Positions 27,354 to 42,807 of a stretch of 64,000 nucleotides of DNA are shown piece after piece (within the stretch, counting starts at the first letter, position 1; each line of letters begins with the position of its first letter). This DNA is from Chrysoporthe austroafricana (Eukaryota; Ascomycota; Sordariomycetes; Diaporthales; Cryphonectriaceae), in assembly GCA_001051155.2 (NCBI GenBank), contig JYIP02000017.1, positions 208,231 to 272,230 on the forward strand, written 5' to 3'. The notes below the pieces were generated by a model that had not been told where the DNA came from, searched no databases, and was given only the letters and a program-made list of their open reading frames with translations. Both the position numbers and the translations under genes were made by a program.

Positions 27354-30300
27354 TTATTCGAACAGTTCCACTATGTTCACATCGCCATTTCGAACGGCCC
27401 AATACCGCGGCGTCTGCCCGTCCTTGTCTCTGGCCTCCTTGTCAGCACCCGCTTCGACAAGAAGCTTTGCGACGTTTAAAGAGCCATTCCAGGCGGCCTG
27501 GGAGAGCGGCGTCTGCCCGTCCTTGTCTCTGGCCTCCTTATTAGCACCCGCTTCGACAAGAAGCTTTGCGACGTTTAAAGAGCCATTCCAGGCGGCCTGG
27601 GAGAGCGGCGTCTGCCCGTCCTTGTCTCTGGCCTCCTTGTCAGCACCCGCTTCGACAAGAAGCTTTGCGACGTTTAAAGAGCCATTCCAGGCGGCCCGGG
27701 AGAGCGGCGTCTGCCTGTCCTTGTCTCTGGCCTCCTTGTCAGCACCCGCTTCGATAAGAAGCTTTGCGACGTCTGAAAAGCCATTCAAGGCGGCCTGGGA
27801 GAGCGGCGTCCGCCCGTTCATGTCTCTGGCCTCCTTGTCAGCACCCGTTTCGACAAGAAGCTCTGCGACATTTAAAGAGCCATTCCAGGCCCGGGAGAGC
27901 GGCGTCCGCCCGTCCTTGTCTCTGGCCTCCTTATTAGCACCCGCTTCGATAAGAAGTTTTGCGACGTTTAAAGAGCCATTCCAGGCCCGGGAGAGCGGCG
28001 TCCGCCCGTCCTTATCTCTGGCCTCCTTGTCAGCACCCGTTTCGACAAGAAGCTTTGCGATATCTAAAGAGCCAATCCAGGCGGCCCAAGAGAGCGGCGT
28101 CCGCCCGTCCTTATCTCTGGCCTCCTTATTAGCACCCGCTTCGATAAGAAGCTCTGCGATATCTGAAAAGCCATTCAAGGCGGCCCAAGAGAGCGGCGTC
28201 CGCCCGTCTTTGTCTCTGGCCTCCTTGTCAGCACCCGCTTCGACAAGAAGCTTTGCGACATCTAAAGAGCCATTCCAGGCAGCCCGGGAGAGCGGCGTCT
28301 GCCTATCCTTATCTCTGGCCTCCTTATCAGCACCCGTTTCGATAAGAAGCTTTGCGATATCTAAAGAGCCAATCCAGGCGGCCTGGGAGAGCGGCGTCCG
28401 CCCGTCTTTGTCTCTGGCCTCCTTGTCAGCACCCGCTTCGACAAGAAGCTTTGCGACGTTTAAAGAGCCATTCCAGGCGGCCCGGGAGAGCGGCGTCTGC
28501 CCGTCCTTGTCTCTGGCCTCCTTGTCAGCACCCGCTTCGACAAGAAGCTTTGCGATATCTAAAGAGCCATTCAAGGCGGCCCGGGAGAGCGGCGTCCGCC
28601 CGTCCTTGTCTCTGGCCTCCTTGTCAGCACCCATTTCGACAAGAAGCTTCGCGATGTCTAAGTAGCCGTCTTCGGCGGCCTGGTGCAGAAGATTTGCGTC
28701 CGGCGTATGGTGGCGCACTTCATTCTTCTCCAAGAGATTGTACAAGTATATCCACTGCTGCAAAGGAAAGCCCTGCAAGAAACTTCTTTGAACAATCCCT
28801 TCGGATTCAGCTTTATCTGCATGATGCAGAATGGTACGGACGGCGTACTTGAGAAAGGGGAAAGACTGTTGGGCTAAGCTTCGAATATCAACTGCATTTT
28901 GGCTGGATGCCTTCGGCAATTGTTTAGGCAGACGTAAAATCCCGCATATATCAGCGCAAATATACTTCAGACAGTATCGTTTCAGTTGTTCATGGCTTTG
29001 TCCTTGGAACCGATCTCCCACATCCGGCCAGATTTCTTGCAATCTGTTGTCTTTGAGAAAGAAATCCCGTACCGATTCGTGAATGAACTGGACCACTGGA
29101 GTTTCCGAGTTGGTAGTTTCGGCTAATCCTTTAGAAGAATCCACTATGAATCTCCGAATGATATCAAGGGTAATAAGCCTTTCGTCCCAAGGCCCAAATG
29201 ATTCGTAGTCCGTTTCGGTAAGAATAGCGAAGTACAATTCTTCAGGCCTCAAGGGCTGTTTTGCGAAAAGGATCCATTGAATGCACATAATCATTCCGTA
29301 TCTGTTCCGAGCGTCTCGAGTCAACATATCCCGAAAAAGATCATGCAATCCGGTCGGGATTTCTCGAAGTCGTTTGCGTAAAGCGCGGTTGTTTCCGCGA
29401 TCGTTTTCCTTATTAAGGATATTCACAACCAGGACGACCCACATGAAAACACCTGACGCCTTGGCCCGCAGCTCAGTGATGATCCGTTTTCCGGCCTCGT
29501 CATGTTCGATCTTAAGCTCGCTATGGATATAGTTGGCGATATCTTGATTATGGCCTTCCTGGCCTTCTAAAATCAACTCTATCCCGTGAGCGATAGTAAT
29601 GTGAGGATAGTGTCGGCTGGAAAAGCAGAGTTGGAACCGGATGTTGGACACAATAACCAATTCGCCAATACGCTCGAAAAATGATAACATATCTCGGATC
29701 TCGTCTTCGTTGCATTCATCCAGCGCATCGATGAAGCAGACTACCGATGACTGGCCAAGATTCTGGACGAATTTCTGAAACAGATCCTTAAGCAATTCGA
29801 TATCCCATTGTATCTGGCCATGCTGCGGCCATACAGTCAGACGGATTGAGTCGAATATGACCTCAAGTTCTGGGATGCGTTGTAGTAGTTGCAAGAGCAG
29901 TGATCGGAACATTCCAGCGGTAGATTTCTCGAGCGCCTCGCCACGTGCATTGAAAAAGAATGACAGGATGATCTTGTCGCTTGCCGTCTTTCGCTCTCGA
30001 TCCAACGCATACTTCATCAGCGTCGACTTCCCTGTTCCTGGATGTCCCTTGATCCAGAGGAGCCCATGATGCTCAGTTACCTTACTGGGATCAAGCCAAT
30101 CGCGATACTCGTCTTTCGTATTCAGCCACTTGCAAGTCTTTGCGTGGGCCATCTTAATAGTCATACGGCGTGCATCGATTTGGTGAAATCCTAGAGAATC
30201 CCGCAACTGTTTCCTCTGCTCTTTCGTCAGGGAGGAACTAGCATTGGGAATTCGATTCTCAGGAAGGCTCGCTGTCATTCGTCGGAGGGCGGCAGCGACC

Positions 30301-35319: not shown

Positions 35320-38300
35320 ATGGAGCATCAGCCTCAAACATCGTCCTCGCCTCTCAGGATTCTGTCCCTTGGTAAGAGCTCCTGTATGCTGCAGCTTCTT
35401 TATAGCTGACGAATTTAGATGGCGGCGGTATACGGGGCATTTCTAGCCTCCTGATTCTCGAGCACCTGATGGAAGAGATCCGTAAGGCAGACGGCCTCGA
35501 GCACGTCCCGCTGCCATGCGAATATTTCCACTTCATTGGCGGAACAAGCACCGGAGGGTACTACGGCCCAGACTATGTCGAATTGTTCTCCCGCTAATCT
35601 ACTCGCCAGGATTATTGCTATCATGCTGGGGAGGCTACGTATGACGGTCGACGAGTGTATTAGAGAGTACCGAGAAGTCGCGCAGAAGGCGTTTACGCCC
35701 AAACGATTTTCATTCCTTCCAGCTCCACCAAAGGGTGCCTTTTCCAGTAAAGCCCTCGAGGATGCGGTGAGAAACACAAGCATGAAGTTTTGCACAGAAG
35801 CAGAGTGTGCTAGTCAGCGGCAGCGGGGCAGTTCCACGGTCAGAACCTGCCCCCATAGTGAGGCGGAATTTCGAGACAGCACATGTACCAAGACGTATGT
35901 ATGCTGCGCGCACATTTTGAACCCATCTGAAAGAAGACTGATCCATCATAGTGCTGTTCTCGCCATCACTAAGGACAATGTGGACACTCTGCCGACTCTT
36001 TTCACCACGTACGGCACGTCGGCAGACTTTCGCGGATGCCCTATCTGGCAGGTAGCCCGTGCAACATCGGCAGCCACATCGTTCTTTAAGCCCATCCAAG
36101 TCGGTCGGGATGGGGTCGAGTTTGTGGACGCTGGGTTTGGGTATAACAATCCATGTGAGATTCTCATCGGTGAAGCTCAGCGGCAGTTCCCATCCTATCC
36201 CCGGATCCAGGTCCTTAGCATTGGTACTGGACTCGGAGACATTGTATCCATCGGCAACACGCGAATGGACATCCTTAAGGCGCTGAAGAAGATGGCTACC
36301 AGTTCGAAGGCTGTAGCAGCCAGGATGGATGAGCAATATGGCGACAGTGGAGATTACTTCAGATTCAATGTCGACAGGGGGCTTGACGACGTCACTTTAT
36401 CCGACTGGCAGGAAGCAAGCAAAATCTCAGCGCATACAAAGAACTACATTCGAGAAAACCGGAGAGGAATCAAGAACTTTGTTCGCTGTGCAACCGGACA
36501 ATTTGAAGCAAATGAGACGCCAGCGGGAACAGAAACAGTGGCGGTCGAACAACCGAGAAGTTAGTTTAATAATCCTATCTTTAATCGGACGTTGTCTAAT
36601 TCCGCTGCAGACAAAGTGTTTCATCTAGTACCACTTCCGCAGAACAAGCGCTTTATTGAACGTCGCGAATCAAAAGACCTGAAGCAAATGCTCTCCAAGC
36701 AACAGGGGCAAACAGTTGCATTAGCAGGACTAGGCGGCTCTGGGAAGACGCAAATAGCTCTCGATATCGCCTACTGGACCAAAACTAACTTACCAAAGTA
36801 CTCAGTATTCTGGGTGCCAGCTTACAGCTTTGCAAGCTTCGAGCAAGCGTACACAGACATCGCCAAGGAGATAGGCATCAGTCCGACTGCACAGAACGAA
36901 GATATGAAGACCTTCATCCGACAGTTCCTAAGCTCCGGCAAGATAGGACCTTGGCTCCTGATCGTGGACAACGCCGACGATATGGATATTATATTCGGCA
37001 CTTCAGAAGATCAAAAAGGCTTGAAGGGTTATTTACCACAGAACGAGCATGGTATGATATTGTATACCACTCGTTTCACGGATGTGGCGTTCTCAGTTAC
37101 GGATAATCCTCCGATAAAGCTCTATGAGATGGATGAGAAGGATGCTTTGCGCCTTCTAGAGCGTTCTCTTCACCGGAAAGAACTGCTTTGGGACAAGAGT
37201 TTGGTGACAACTCTCCTGCGATCATTAACCCATCTTCCCTTGGCGATCACGCAGGCCGCCGCGTATTTGAATAGGAACGGGCACGTGTCTCTTGAGAAGT
37301 ACCTCCGATTGCTGCAGGAAACAGAACAGACCCTGGTCAACTTGATGAGATGGGAGTTCCCCGATAAAAACCGATACGATGACTTGCCAAATGCGATTGC
37401 AACCACCTGGATGGTGTCTTTCGACCAGATCCAGCGGACCGACAGCTTCGCTTCCAATTTATTATCCTTCATTTCGCACATCGAGCCGAAATCTATACCG
37501 CAGTCGATACTACCTTGTCCCGGGCCCGAGGTAGATATCGAAAACTCAATTGGCACGCTATGTTCCTACGCGTTTCTGGTGAAACAGGACAAAGACGAAA
37601 CCTTTGATATGCATAGACTGGTACACATCGCAACGCGGCTCTGGGTCAAGGACAACTCAGTAGAGGGCCAGACAATGAAGGGTGCAATTCAGCAACTGGA
37701 CAAAGTATTTCCATCCGACGATTATAGGAATCGTGCTGTCTGGAGGCAGTATATACCCCATGCCCTAAAGGCTCTACAGGAAAGCACAGGAGTCGAAAAT
37801 GACATAAGGTCGAATTTGTACCTGAGAGTTGGGCGATGCCTGATAAGAGATGGACGGGTGAAAGAAGCTGTTAGGTCTTTGGACGAAGGGTTTAAGCTGA
37901 TGAAAAGCTCTCCGATTGAAGATATGCTAAGACTTGCTTTGCAATACGAGCTCGCACAGGCATTCCAAGCAGATGGGCAAGTGAAAAAGGCTATTGAGCT
38001 ACTTGAGCAGGTAGTCGAGATTCAAAAGAAAATACTCGACAAAGAGCACCCTGACCGCCTTGCTTCGCAACATACCCTTGCAATGGCATATCGAGCAATC
38101 GGGCGAACAAAAGAAGCTATTGGGCTGCTCGAGCAAGTAGTCAAGATTCAAAAGAAAACACTCGACAAAAAGCACCCTAACCGCCTTGCTTCACAACATA
38201 ACCTTGCAGTAGCATATCAAGCAAACGGGCGAACAAAAGAAGCTATTGGGCTGCTCGAGCAAGTAATCGAGATTCAAAAGAAAATATTCGATAAAGAGCA

Positions 38301-39490
38301 CCCTGACCGCCTTGCTTTACAATNACGGGCGAACAAAAGAAGCTATTGGGCTGCTCGAGCAAGTAATCGAGATTCAAAAGAAAATATTCGATTTTCTCGT
38401 GGGACTGGCGGAACGAAATGTTATATTGGAACGTCATTGTATAGTTCGTTTGCCCGCTTGTTTTCTTCGATAACCCGACGAGCTCGTTCATGTTGAGATT
38501 CAAAAGAAAACACTTGATAAAGAGCACCCTGACTGCCTTGCTTCGCAATATGAGCTTGCAAGGGCATATCAAGCAGACGGGCGAACAAAAGAAGCTATTG
38601 GGCTGCTCGAGCAAGTAATCGAGATTCAAAAGAAAATATTCGATTTTCTCGTGGGACTGGCGGAACGAAATGTTAATAACCTTGCAGTAACATATCAAGC
38701 AAACGGGCGAACAAAAGAAGCTATTGGGCTGCTCGAGCAAGTAATCGAGATTCAAAAGAAAATATTCGACAAAAAGCACCCTGACTGCCTTCGAAGCGTT
38801 ATACTCGAACGTTTCCGTATAGTTCGTCTGCCCGCTTGTTTTCTTCGATAACCCGACGAGCTCGTTCATCAGCTCTAAGTTTTCTAAACATTCGACAAAG
38901 AGCACCCTGACTGCCTTGCTTCGCAATATAACCTTGCAGTGATATATCGAGCAGACGGGCGAACAAAAGAAGCTATTGAGCTGCTCGAACAAGTAATCAA
39001 GATTCAAAAGAAAACACTCGATAAAGAGCACCCTGACCGCCTTGCTTTACAACATAACCTTGCAATAGCATATCAAACAAACGGGCGAACAAAAGAAGCT
39101 ATTGGGCTGCTCGAACAAGTAGTTGAGATTCAAAAGAAAATACTCGATAAAGAGCACCCTGACCGCCTTGCTTCGCAATATAACCTTGCAGTAACATATC
39201 AAGCAAACGGGCGAACAAAAGAAGCTATTGGGCTGCTCGAGCAAGTAATCGAAATTCAAAAGAAAATACTTGACAAAGAGCACCCTGACCGCCTTCGAAG
39301 CGTTATACTCGAACGTTTCCGTATAGTTCGTCTGCCCGCTTGTTTTCTTCGATAACCCGACGAGCTCGTTCATCAGCTCTAAGTTTTCTAAACACTCGAT
39401 GAAGAGCACCCTGACCGCCTTGCTTCACAACATGAGCTTGCAAGGGCATACCAGGCAGACGGGCGAGTAATGTCGAGTTATGTTCTATAA
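35320..39490 (+). CDS. NLR: patatin phospholipase - NB-ARC - TPR (array disturbed)
   Basis: Exons 35320-35371, 35419-35557, 35610-35894, 35952-36559 and 36611 onward; all phases agree. Domain 1 is a patatin-like phospholipase: LSLDGGGIRGIS, nucleophile in GGTSTGG (Ser61), SFFKPI and the dyad aspartate in FVDAGFGYNNP (Asp218). Domain 2 is NB-ARC: FHLVPLPQNKRFIER, P-loop GLGGSGKTQ (Lys407), GPWLLIVDNADD, GMILYTTRF, LTHLPLAITQAAAYL and FDMHRLVH. Domain 3 is a TPR array of 42-residue units. The frame is clean to 38323. Then come an N at 38324 with 26 bases missing and four blocks that are unreversed complements of the repeat unit, which create apparent stops. Taking these as errors, the frame closes at TAA 39488-39490. 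Related fungal proteins trigger membrane-lipid hydrolysis and cell death. The upstream part is secure; the printed 3' part cannot be translated as it stands. Confidence 0.85.
38324..38324. other. Single ambiguous base N inside the repeat array
   Basis: The distance between flanking repeat landmarks is 100 rather than 126, so 26 bases are missing beside this N. The missing bases restore the reading frame if supplied from a neighbouring unit. It marks a weak point in the assembly. Confidence 0.9.
38393..38491. other. Unreversed-complement block 1 (99 nt)
   Basis: Reads TTTCTCGTGGGACTGGCGG and so on, where the repeat unit in the same direction reads AAAGAGCACCCTGACCGCC. Base-by-base complementation without reversal restores the TPR frame across the block. 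Confidence 0.9.
38645..38675. other. Unreversed-complement block 2 (31 nt)
   Basis: Starts like block 1 (TTTCTCGTGGGACTGGCGG) but returns to the normal strand sense after 31 nt, at ATAACCTTGCAG. Edges are uncertain by one or two bases. Confidence 0.85.
38792..38885. other. Unreversed-complement block 3 (94 nt)
   Basis: Reads CGAAGCGTTATACTCGAACG where the unit reads GCTTCGCAATATGAGCTTGC. It contains the apparent TAA stop that ends the local frame. Confidence 0.9.
39296..39389. other. Unreversed-complement block 4 (94 nt)
   Basis: Same sequence as block 3, exactly 504 bp (four units) downstream. It can be compared base by base with the normal unit starting at 39170, which is 126 bp upstream. 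Confidence 0.9.
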
Positions 39491-40893
39491 TGGATGAACA
39501 GGTCCGGGTCAACCGGCAGCCTCGGCATGTGGTTGCGAGCTCACTGAGGCGCACACGTCTTGCCCGGGGCCGCGCAGCCGTCTCCTGCAGCCCGGGCGGT
39601 GAGCCTGTCGCGCCGTACCAGGATTGAAGCAAGCGCAAGCCGCACCGCAAACGCTCAGTAGATCTCACGTCTTGTCCGGCACGGCCCAGCCGGGACCCGC
39701 GCCGGGGCCAGAAAGGGACAGGCCAGAGACAGCGGGGACAAAAAGGCCGGAGGCGGGGGAAGACAAGAGCGACAGAGACGACCGTCCTCGCCGCGGCGCG
39801 GTCCGGCCGCCCGGCACGCCCGACGTCCAGCACCCGCGGTGCTGCATCCCGCGACTCCCCGCAACGTCCCGTGATGTCGCGGCCGAAATGGGCCGCCCGA
39901 CCGCCCGACAGCAGGTCGGTCCCCCCCCGGACGTCGGGCACAGAGAGGGCGCCGGCGGGGACCGGCACCGTGGGCACGCGCGGCCTCTGGAGGGTGCGCC
40001 GTGTGAGCCCCTGTCGATGCCAGCAGCCGGGGCCGCCCACCAGAAGCTGGACGGGTCGTCCGGCAGAGGCTGGCTAGCAGTTGCTCAAGCCGTCCGGGGG
40101 AAACTGGCCGGTAATTACTTGTGGGTTCGTCGCCGCCGCCCGCTGCTGTCGTCTGGGAGGCCCGCCGCGGCGGGGACAGACGGATGCAGGAATGCACCCC
40201 CGAACCCACTGTGGCACACGCACAAGTCCGGACACTTTCGACAGGCCGCCGTGTTGTCCCGCGGAGGTTGCGAGAGGAGGAGGTGGGGGGGGTGGGACAG
40301 GTATGAGTCCTGCCCGTCCGAGTCCAGGGGAGATGTACGGCACCGCGAAACGTGGCGTGGTGTCAGTGCCAGGCAGATTTACCCGTTCGAATGTGCGACT
40401 TGTAAATATATAGATGTATATGCTAGGTATGTATAAATATATTTCATCGCGTGCGTAGCGGGTTGGCAGTCATGCCTGCTTGTCCCGTCCCCTGCATCTT
40501 CCGGGGAGTATGCGCGCCGAAGTGTACGAAATGGTCGCTGTGGGTCTGACGTGCAGATGGCACCGCACATCTCTTTGGTTAATTACAATTGGCCAGCTGC
40601 AGCCGTCATCAGCTGAAGGCAGGCAGCGTCGTCGAGCGGGGAGGAGACTGCCGAGTTACATATAGCCCGGCCAGCCTGATCTTTGTCTGCGCTTCCCTCT
40701 TCTCGACCGATGCTCTCTCCCCAGCACTTTCTGGCTTGCGACGTCTGCCAGACTGCTCGGCAGGGTCTCGCCTCCGTTGTTGCATCTGCAATAGATCGTA
40801 CGCCACGGCCACGCTCGCGGCCGAGCTCTCGCCCGAGCTCTCGCCCGACCTACCGGAGTACCGGCTCGGGGTCTCGTTCCCGTTGTCGTCGCA
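39491..40893. other. GC-rich intergenic island
   Basis: From about 39500 to 40380 the sequence is strikingly GC-rich compared with the TPR array before it. Open frames run on both strands (for example 39624-40436 plus, 39655-40209 minus), but their peptides are Pro/Arg/Gly/Ala-rich and unrecognised, as expected from composition. I call no gene. Confidence 0.5.
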
Positions 40894-42007
40894 ATGGACG
40901 AAGGCCCTTCGACAGCGGGCCGCGCCATCCGCCCTCCACCCGCAGACACGCCTGGAGTCTCTACGTACATATACCAGCCGCTTCCGAGTAACAGCCACAT
41001 CCGCCGGCTGATCCTGCAGGCGGGTGCTGGCGATGATGCTCTCGACGGACATCTGGAGACCATCGAGTTGAGGCATGCCGACGTATTGTATCCGTTTGAG
41101 GCGATCTCGTACGTGTGGGGAGAAGACATCAAGGATGAAATCATCACGATCGATGGGAGGGTGCTCGCGATCACGAGGAACCTGAAGGAGGCTCTCTGGC
41201 AAGCGAGACGGGACGACAGGCCGCGGGCGCTGTGGGCCGACTCGGTGTGTATCAACCAGGACGACGAGGCGGAGAAGGGGCAGCAGGTGGCGCTGATGGG
41301 CGACATCTACCGGACGTCGCGCTGCACCCTGATATGCCTCGGCCCCGAGCCCGGATGCCAACAGCATGCCCGCGATGTCGCCGCGTTGATAGCCGACGTG
41401 GAGGAAAGAATGGATCGGGTTTTTCACAGCCCGGACTTCTCGTGGGACTGGAACAGCTTTCCGTTTCCGCAAGCCGACGACCCGCTGGTGACCGATCCGA
41501 GGTGGAGACCTTGGTCGGAAATGATAGATCGGCCCTGGTTTTACCGCGGGTGGGTTGTGCAGGAGGCAGCACTCGGGCCGGACGGTCTCGTGCTCTGGGC
41601 GGGCGTCGAGATCCCGTGGCGCAGCGTCTTGCGAGTGTACTGGTGGCTAGTTGAGCGGGGGTCGCCTCTGATGCCGACGTTGGGAAAGTGGAGATTATCA
41701 GAAACTCATCCGCGGACGTACAAACTCGACCAGCGGAAAGAAGCTCGGACGTTCCTTCTCGGTTATGAGCAAGAGCGATTGGAGGCGATGCCGACTCTCC
41801 AATTGCTGGGATACGCCCGGACTCTGGAAGTGACGGACCCGAAAGACCGGATTTATGCGTTTATGGCCATGCGGACTTCGGACGAGGCGATGCCTGCGCT
41901 GCGGCCGGACTACAGTGACGAGGTATCGCACCTGGACGTGTACCGGGAATTTGCCATAGAGTACTTCAAAAAGACGTCGAACCTGGATCTCCTGAGCTTC
42001 GTGGAAC

Positions 42008-42045
<38 letters not shown>

Positions 42046-42807
42046 GAGCTGGGCGCCGCCTCCTCCTTCCCGTCGTGGATCCCGCGCTGGGACCGCGGCG
42101 CTGCCGTTGATCCCTTCTCCCACCGGGTAGACCAGAAAATCGAAAACGGCGACAGTGCAGCCTCCGTGCAGCCCGGTTCCGTCCTCCGGGTCAGCGCCGT
42201 TGCCATTGGCCTGGTCAAATTTGTCTCTACAGAAGCCCAGGACCACCGGCGGGCTTCGGTTTCGGCAGCAGTCGAGGAGGTGGTCCGGCTGTGGAGGGAC
42301 GTCGCGCCGCAGTCCGCAACGCACCCCGGCCCGCACCACCGCCGCCTAAGCTACGCCTTCCTCGTATGCCTCTGTCGGGGGAGGTTTGACGGCCAAGAAG
42401 ACGAGTTCAACGAATCTCAAAAGGCGTTCGCACAGCTTCTGCAGTCCGACCAGCCACCACGCCCTGCGGATACCTATACGCGGGACCGCCGTGCGGTACG
42501 AATCTCGGGATTCGCGATAAATCGGTCGCACCGTCGGCGAGTAATTATCTTTAGTCGCGGCTGCTACGGGCTCGCACCACGTCTCACCCGCAAGGGCGAC
42601 GTGTGCGCCATCATCTACGGGACCCGCACGCCGTTCATCCTCCGGGAGGTCGCCGGCAAGAGAGGCCACTATAGACTCGTCGGGGCGGCGTACCTTCAAA
42701 GTGAGAAAGCCACCTGGGACGGCCGTCCATACAGGCTGGGTCGGGGCAGAGGGAGGAATAACTGGGAAGAGGGGAACTCGCCTGCCGAGCACATCTTCCT
42801 CCACTGA
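40894..42807 (+). CDS. HET-domain (heterokaryon incompatibility) protein
   Basis: Single exon, 637 residues. All three HET blocks are present: FEAISYVWGED (68-78), LWADSVCINQDD (113-124) with EKGQQVALMGDIYRTS, and WFYRGWVVQEAALGP (about 215-229). They are followed by YARTLEVTDPKDRIYAFMAM and a C-terminal region with YGLAPRLTRKGDVCAII and GHYRLVGAAYL that is typical of long HET proteins. A run of Asp residues encoded by GAC repeats interrupts the middle (42008-42047). HET domains are TIR-like folds that cause cell death after non-self recognition. The gene closes the NLR island on its right side and is intact, unlike the copy at 3.9-5.4 kb. Confidence 0.93.

Follow-up and report, generated by a model that had tools for sequence, protein, structure and literature searches.

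We found that four blocks within a tandem array of TPR-coding units in the Chrysoporthe austroafricana genome assembly are written as the complement of the repeat unit without its reversal, and we conclude, with a probability of about 98%, that these blocks are not a real feature but an assembly artefact, in which the overlaps of joined K=99 contigs were complemented and not reversed. The blocks lie in a 64,000-base stretch of DNA, referred to here as the window, which corresponds to positions 208231-272230 of contig C9 in a genome of 48,151,211 bases and 22 contigs. Within the window, units of 126 bp follow one another from about 37990 to 39466 and code for TPR repeats downstream of an NB-ARC domain. 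An earlier note on this DNA had named a consensus or finishing error, complementing without reversing, as the likeliest cause of the blocks; our results support that view and narrow it to the overlap zones of contigs joined at K=99. Three things were observed directly: the geometry of the blocks, a 99-bp signature at three places, and the coincidence of the blocks with predicted contig overlaps.

Four blocks of the TPR array are complemented in place

The four blocks, all read on the plus strand, occupy positions 38393-38491 (block 1, 99 bases), 38645-38675 (block 2, 31 bases), 38792-38885 (block 3, 94 bases) and 39296-39389 (block 4, 94 bases). We compared each block with positions 37000-41499 and found that, as an in-place complement, each matched one place: block 1 at 98.0%, block 2 at 31 of 31 bases, and blocks 3 and 4 at 97.9%. 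The best reverse-complement identities of blocks 1 to 4 were 46.5, 54.8, 44.7 and 44.7%, and the best identities after plain reversal were 43.4, 54.8, 44.7 and 44.7%. The earlier note had described the blocks as in-place complements of the repeat, related to it neither directly nor as reverse complements. With identities of 97.9-100% in place versus 44.7-54.8% as reverse complements, that description holds, and the block limits given with it are right to the base.

Read directly, the blocks scored highest against one another or against sequence that runs into a block: 100% for block 2 with block 1 and for block 3 with block 4, and 69.7% for block 1. Outside such sequence, the best direct identity was 39.4% for block 1 and 40.4% for each of blocks 3 and 4, while block 2 reached 64.5% over its 31 bases, at 41436. 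On these identity comparisons, we rejected the readings of the blocks as inverted, reversed or directly similar sequence. A source for the blocks by ordinary identity, which the earlier note had named as a finding that would speak against it, was not found in 37000-41499, where direct identity outside the other blocks was at best 39.4-64.5%. We also complemented the whole window in place and searched it against the window by BLAST on both strands, with low-complexity filtering and E values up to 1e-3: all matches fell inside 37936-39466, and the best had an E value of 1.67e-76. Accordingly, within the 64,000-base window this search at E up to 1e-3 found no in-place-complement pattern outside the TPR array.

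The eight switch points into and out of the blocks are sharp to the base, their coordinates being confirmed by alignment columns at most 8 bases from each block end. At the block ends, the unflipped units of the array back the direct base outside the block and the complement inside it; the one exception is position 38680, outside a block, where both are backed. With the unflipped units as reference, bases never seen at their register numbered 97 of 99, 31 of 31, 91 of 94 and 91 of 94 in blocks 1 to 4 as written. By the same reference, complementing the blocks back left 0 of 99, 0 of 31, 1 of 94 and 1 of 94 such bases, the single novel base in blocks 3 and 4 being at the same position of the unit.

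Block boundaries coincide with contig overlaps predicted at K=99

In de Bruijn assemblies, contigs overlap by K at repeats. In the model that we used, an exact repeat of length L equal to or greater than K forms its own node, the contig to its left ending with the first K bases of the repeat and the contig to its right starting with the last K. If the repeat node is skipped, the flanking contigs overlap by 2K-L; with the node in the path, its overlap with the neighbour is K. The array holds two pairs of such repeats on the plus strand. The first, R1, is 167 bp long and lies at 38325-38491 (copy A) and 38577-38743 (copy B), its two copies being exact after complementing back; the second, R2, is 104 bp long, lies at 38787-38890 (copy 1) and 39291-39394 (copy 2), and is exact as written too. 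In the window and the 93 repeat loci fetched from the genome, each taken singly, exact direct repeats of at least 99 bp occurred only in the TPR array and in an array on contig C6 that holds the other N of the fetched sequence.

At K=99, the model predicts overlaps at 38393-38491 (99 bases), 38645-38675 (31 bases, 2x99-167), 38792-38885 (94 bases, 2x99-104) and 39296-39389 (94 bases), and these are the four blocks. Block 1 thus corresponds to the overlap of the R1 repeat contig (38325-38491) with the next contig. The other three each fall where two unique contigs overlap across a repeat copy: R1 copy B for block 2, R2 copy 1 for block 3 and R2 copy 2 for block 4. All eight block boundaries were matched at K=99, versus one of the eight at each of the 19 other values of K in 90-109; the one boundary matched at every K tried is the end of block 1, which is true by construction.

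The overlap rule was formulated with the blocks already known, and the eight boundaries are not independent of one another: the end of block 1 is the end of R1 by construction, the 167 bp of R1 are reached only once its block is complemented back, and a single repeat, present in two copies, underlies both block 3 and block 4. At R1 copy A, but at none of the remaining three copies, the repeat contig was let into the path, on the ground that R1 starts immediately after the N at 38324; had it been skipped there, the overlap would end at 38423. The prediction for R2 is independent of complementing, since its 104 bp come from the raw sequence and the value of K from C6. From this geometry, the scaffold path would run from a left contig ending at 38323, through the N, to the R1 contig at 38325-38491, and then through contigs at 38393-38675, 38645-38885, 38792-39389 and 39296 onward.

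A 99-bp duplicate flanks the N joint once block 1 is complemented back

The only N in the 64,000-base window is a single letter at 38324, an unmerged contig joint that the first reading of the sequence had left unused. We found that, as written, 68 bp are shared exactly across it (38225-38292 with 38325-38392). With block 1 complemented back, the exact share grows to 99 bp: the end of the contig left of the N (38225-38323, plus strand) is identical to the start of the contig right of it (38325-38423, plus strand), the last 31 bases of which lie within block 1. The register of the array breaks at this joint. The earlier note had the blocks keeping their 126-bp register exactly; this stands for the array after the N and fails across it, where a landmark recurs at a spacing of 100 instead of 126 (38272 to 38372) because of the 99-bp duplicate plus the N. 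Because the 99-bp duplicate requires that 31 bases of block 1 be complemented back, the contig still carried the normal bases at the cutting of the graph, and the complementing is the later event.

The second N site in the fetched sequence, at C6:474039, gave the same signature. This position (1708 of locus L068) belongs to a WD40 array with a 126-bp period close to where contig C6 ends, and the single N there is likewise an unmerged contig joint: it is flanked by a 99-bp duplicate that is exact as written. In addition, contig C20 ends in 99 bases that have an exact copy in C6, the identity ending at base 100. A duplicate of constant length, 99 bp, is thus found at three places: the C6 N, where it stands as written, the C9 N, where block 1 must first be complemented back, and the end of C20, which shares it with C6. 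Exact overlaps of one fixed length at contig ends are a mark of de Bruijn graph assembly, and we infer that 99 is the K of the graph. The conventions for k and K in de Bruijn assemblers are treated in PMC5368935. Contigs C20 (L067, C20:4590449-4592248) and C6 (L068, C6:472332-475084) both end inside WD40 arrays of the same family, and these ends may reflect one array broken in two or breaks in close paralogues.

Searches for the same fault elsewhere

We fetched 93 repeat loci from the genome, some of them inside the window, amounting to 285,375 bases counting overlaps and to 161,550 distinct 31-mers, and compared their in-place complements with their direct sequence by BLAST. Of 4,095 matches, 3,808 lay in the TPR array, 284 joined the array to loci L028 and L029, which are one TPR array on contig C12, and 3 lay elsewhere (two 22-base self-matches on the minus strand and one 23-base match). 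Among the matches listed, every pair between the array and L028/L029 that carried window coordinates fell within block 1, 3 or 4, which is what a flip of the TPR array alone would give.

Searches of the whole genome gave a similar picture. The letters of block 3, as they stand, matched three places, all in the TPR array. The in-place complement of seven array samples (1,318 bases) gave no match in the genome, an empty result that by itself shows nothing. Normal-sense controls were run for two families only: the TPR unit returned 12 matches, 10 in the TPR array and 2 on C12, and a WD40 sample from C6 returned 11. With the queries used, which covered part of the repeats of the genome, no second genomic case of complemented blocks was found.

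Beyond this genome, the in-place complement of a 22-base universal 16S stretch was found in 0 stretches of prokaryote genome contigs, versus at least 116 for its normal form. A complemented 16S probe of 64 bases had no match in E. coli genomes, where it was run without a normal-sense control. Since these 16S probes came back empty, the fault is uncommon at the 16S site.

Origin of the complemented blocks

How might an assembly come to hold these blocks? Our results are best explained by a sequence of steps in which de Bruijn graph contigs with K=99 overlaps would have been set end to end through near-identical 126-bp TPR units. At four joins, with overlaps of 99, 31, 94 and 94 bases, the software or a script would have output the complement without reversal, so that each of the four merged overlaps would have been written complemented in the forward order. 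At a fifth joint, the 99-base overlap would have been left unmerged and one N inserted between the contigs. The step of contig joining is most likely where the complementing happened, and the fault would lie in a routine that handles the overlaps of contigs from opposite strands. Unmerged or badly merged contig overlaps in de Bruijn scaffolds give a K-length duplication around a gap, and the C. austroafricana assembly likewise has an exact 99-bp duplicate at both N sites and overlap zones set by K and the repeat length; its overlaps differ in that they are additionally complemented without reversal.

The WD40 array on C6 carries comparable structures without the fault. Its 107-bp repeat (474348-474454 and 474978-475084, the latter being the contig end) holds no complemented stretch, and at its N joint the 99-bp duplicate is present while a complemented stretch is absent. 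From the unflipped repeat and joint on C6, together with the zero count of the 16S probe, it follows that the fault is local or rare; it presumably had a trigger, for example contig orientation. SOAPdenovo2, SPAdes, ABySS and MaSuRCA were considered as candidate assemblers, and the literature that we searched for such a fault yielded no published description of overlaps complemented without reversal.

We weighed three other kinds of explanation. A gap filler or polisher might have closed gaps at the repeats by working leftward along the opposite strand from the contig on the right, adding bases in front without complementing them. Such a routine would by our reasoning likewise yield an in-place complement, and the blocks do sit in exact repeats of at least 99 bp, where gaps and ambiguous mappings are expected. 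However, the block sizes equal the predicted contig overlaps (2K-L or K), and in such overlaps a gap would be surprising, as the contigs on either side already contain the bases in question; we therefore regard this explanation as most unlikely.

The same exchange of letters has been claimed to arise in living cells. Exchange of A with T and C with G has been described by Seligmann as 'swinger DNA' in nuclear and mitochondrial genes, for example in the 16S rDNA of the Kamimuria wangi mitogenome (PMC4942731). The earlier note had called the pattern unprecedented if real; as a claim about sequence this does not stand, since swinger DNA had already been reported (PMC4942731). According to the same paper, swinger DNA has been detected so far for the A<->T + C<->G rule only (PMC4942731). 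This rule is also exactly what a plain software complement without reversal puts out. As in swinger DNA, the C. austroafricana blocks are in-place complements embedded in regular sequence with sharp switches (PMC4942731), and the outward definition, an in-place complement of homologous regular sequence by the A<->T + C<->G rule with sharp switches, describes them well.

Could the blocks then be real swinger DNA, a polymerase having put in the complement of the normal base for 31-99 bases at a time, with the product then fixed in the genome? The form agrees in its abrupt switches and its exchange rule (PMC4942731). However, nothing in this idea would place the eight switch points at the K=99 contig overlaps, or make the 99-bp duplicate at the N return only on complementing back, and the near lack of other changes in the blocks would demand a very recent event. 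Switch points made by a polymerase are expected to be independent of assembly parameters; here they follow K=99, and for this reason the case is not evidence for swinger DNA, which we hold to be extremely unlikely as an explanation. The switch points of the C. austroafricana blocks differ from those of swinger DNA in being contig-overlap boundaries, and therefore the cause is computational. Less likely still, and scarcely credible, is that the blocks are physically in the chromosome through a polymerase mode that gives the complement in short bursts inside a tandem array, the agreement with K=99 being accidental. Finally, ordinary biology in the form of inversion, gene conversion or unrelated insertion found no support and has a negligible chance of being right, given reverse-complement identities of 44.7-54.8% and plain-reversal identities of 43.4-54.8% at best, and given that beyond the N the blocks stay in the 126-bp register.

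As contig overlaps complemented by software, the blocks are without importance for biology. They are of some diagnostic use, in two questions: do the switch points lie where contigs overlap by 2K-L or K, and does a K-length duplicate stand at a nearby gap? Both can be asked of in-place-complement ('swinger') DNA as claimed in the literature, and also of tandem-repeat genes that are oddly interrupted in draft assemblies.

The host gene and its neighbours

The array belongs to an NB-ARC/TPR gene whose coding sequence upstream of the joint spans 36592-38323 on the plus strand (Pfam NB-ARC, 1.7e-8; TPR_12, 1.4e-28). Among the matches listed, its top relative is from Colletotrichum chlorophyti, at 64% identity, and the relatives that carry an organism name are from species that we take to be ascomycete fungi. 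We assessed the reading frame from 36592 under four treatments of the sequence. As written, with the N taken as an unknown base, the frame is open for 634 codons. Collapsing the joint alone gave 593 open codons, and complementing the blocks back with only the letter N removed gave 965. When the blocks were complemented back and the N joint was collapsed, the frame was open for 932 codons. Gene prediction on the present assembly would give a model that ends too early, at the TPR array.

For comparison, Colletotrichum relatives among the matches listed measure 877 aa (P0001, partial), 771 aa (P0007), 965 aa (P0013, partial), 954 aa (P0022) and 969 aa (P0114). In the best 120 of 3,033 matches, protein lengths run from 608 to 1,004 aa, the search taking proteins of 0.55-1.75 times the 577 aa of the query; because of this admission range, the lengths of the relatives are weak evidence.

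Directly upstream of the NB-ARC/TPR frame (36592-38323) lies a reading frame with a patatin domain (35536-36564; Pfam, 7e-7). Two of the Colletotrichum relatives, P0022 and P0114, have a phosphorylase domain (PF01048) where the C. austroafricana locus has patatin, which suggests that the N-terminal domain was exchanged; such exchanges are known in other fungal NLR-like genes. Like fungal NLR-like proteins with NB-ARC and TPR, the host gene combines these two parts and, the assembly fault aside, we saw nothing odd in it. The locus looks like an ordinary fungal NB-ARC/TPR gene that is broken on paper alone.

Two further features of the window were recorded. Near the NB-ARC/TPR gene is a frame with a HET (heterokaryon incompatibility) domain (40894-42807; 1.3e-31). 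Further away, at 27407-28661, is a tandem array with a 99-bp period (12.7 copies, about 90% matches), which overlaps ankyrin (Ank_2) matches in a minus-strand frame of 1125 codons. An ankyrin unit has 33 aa, and the period of this array equals K by coincidence alone.
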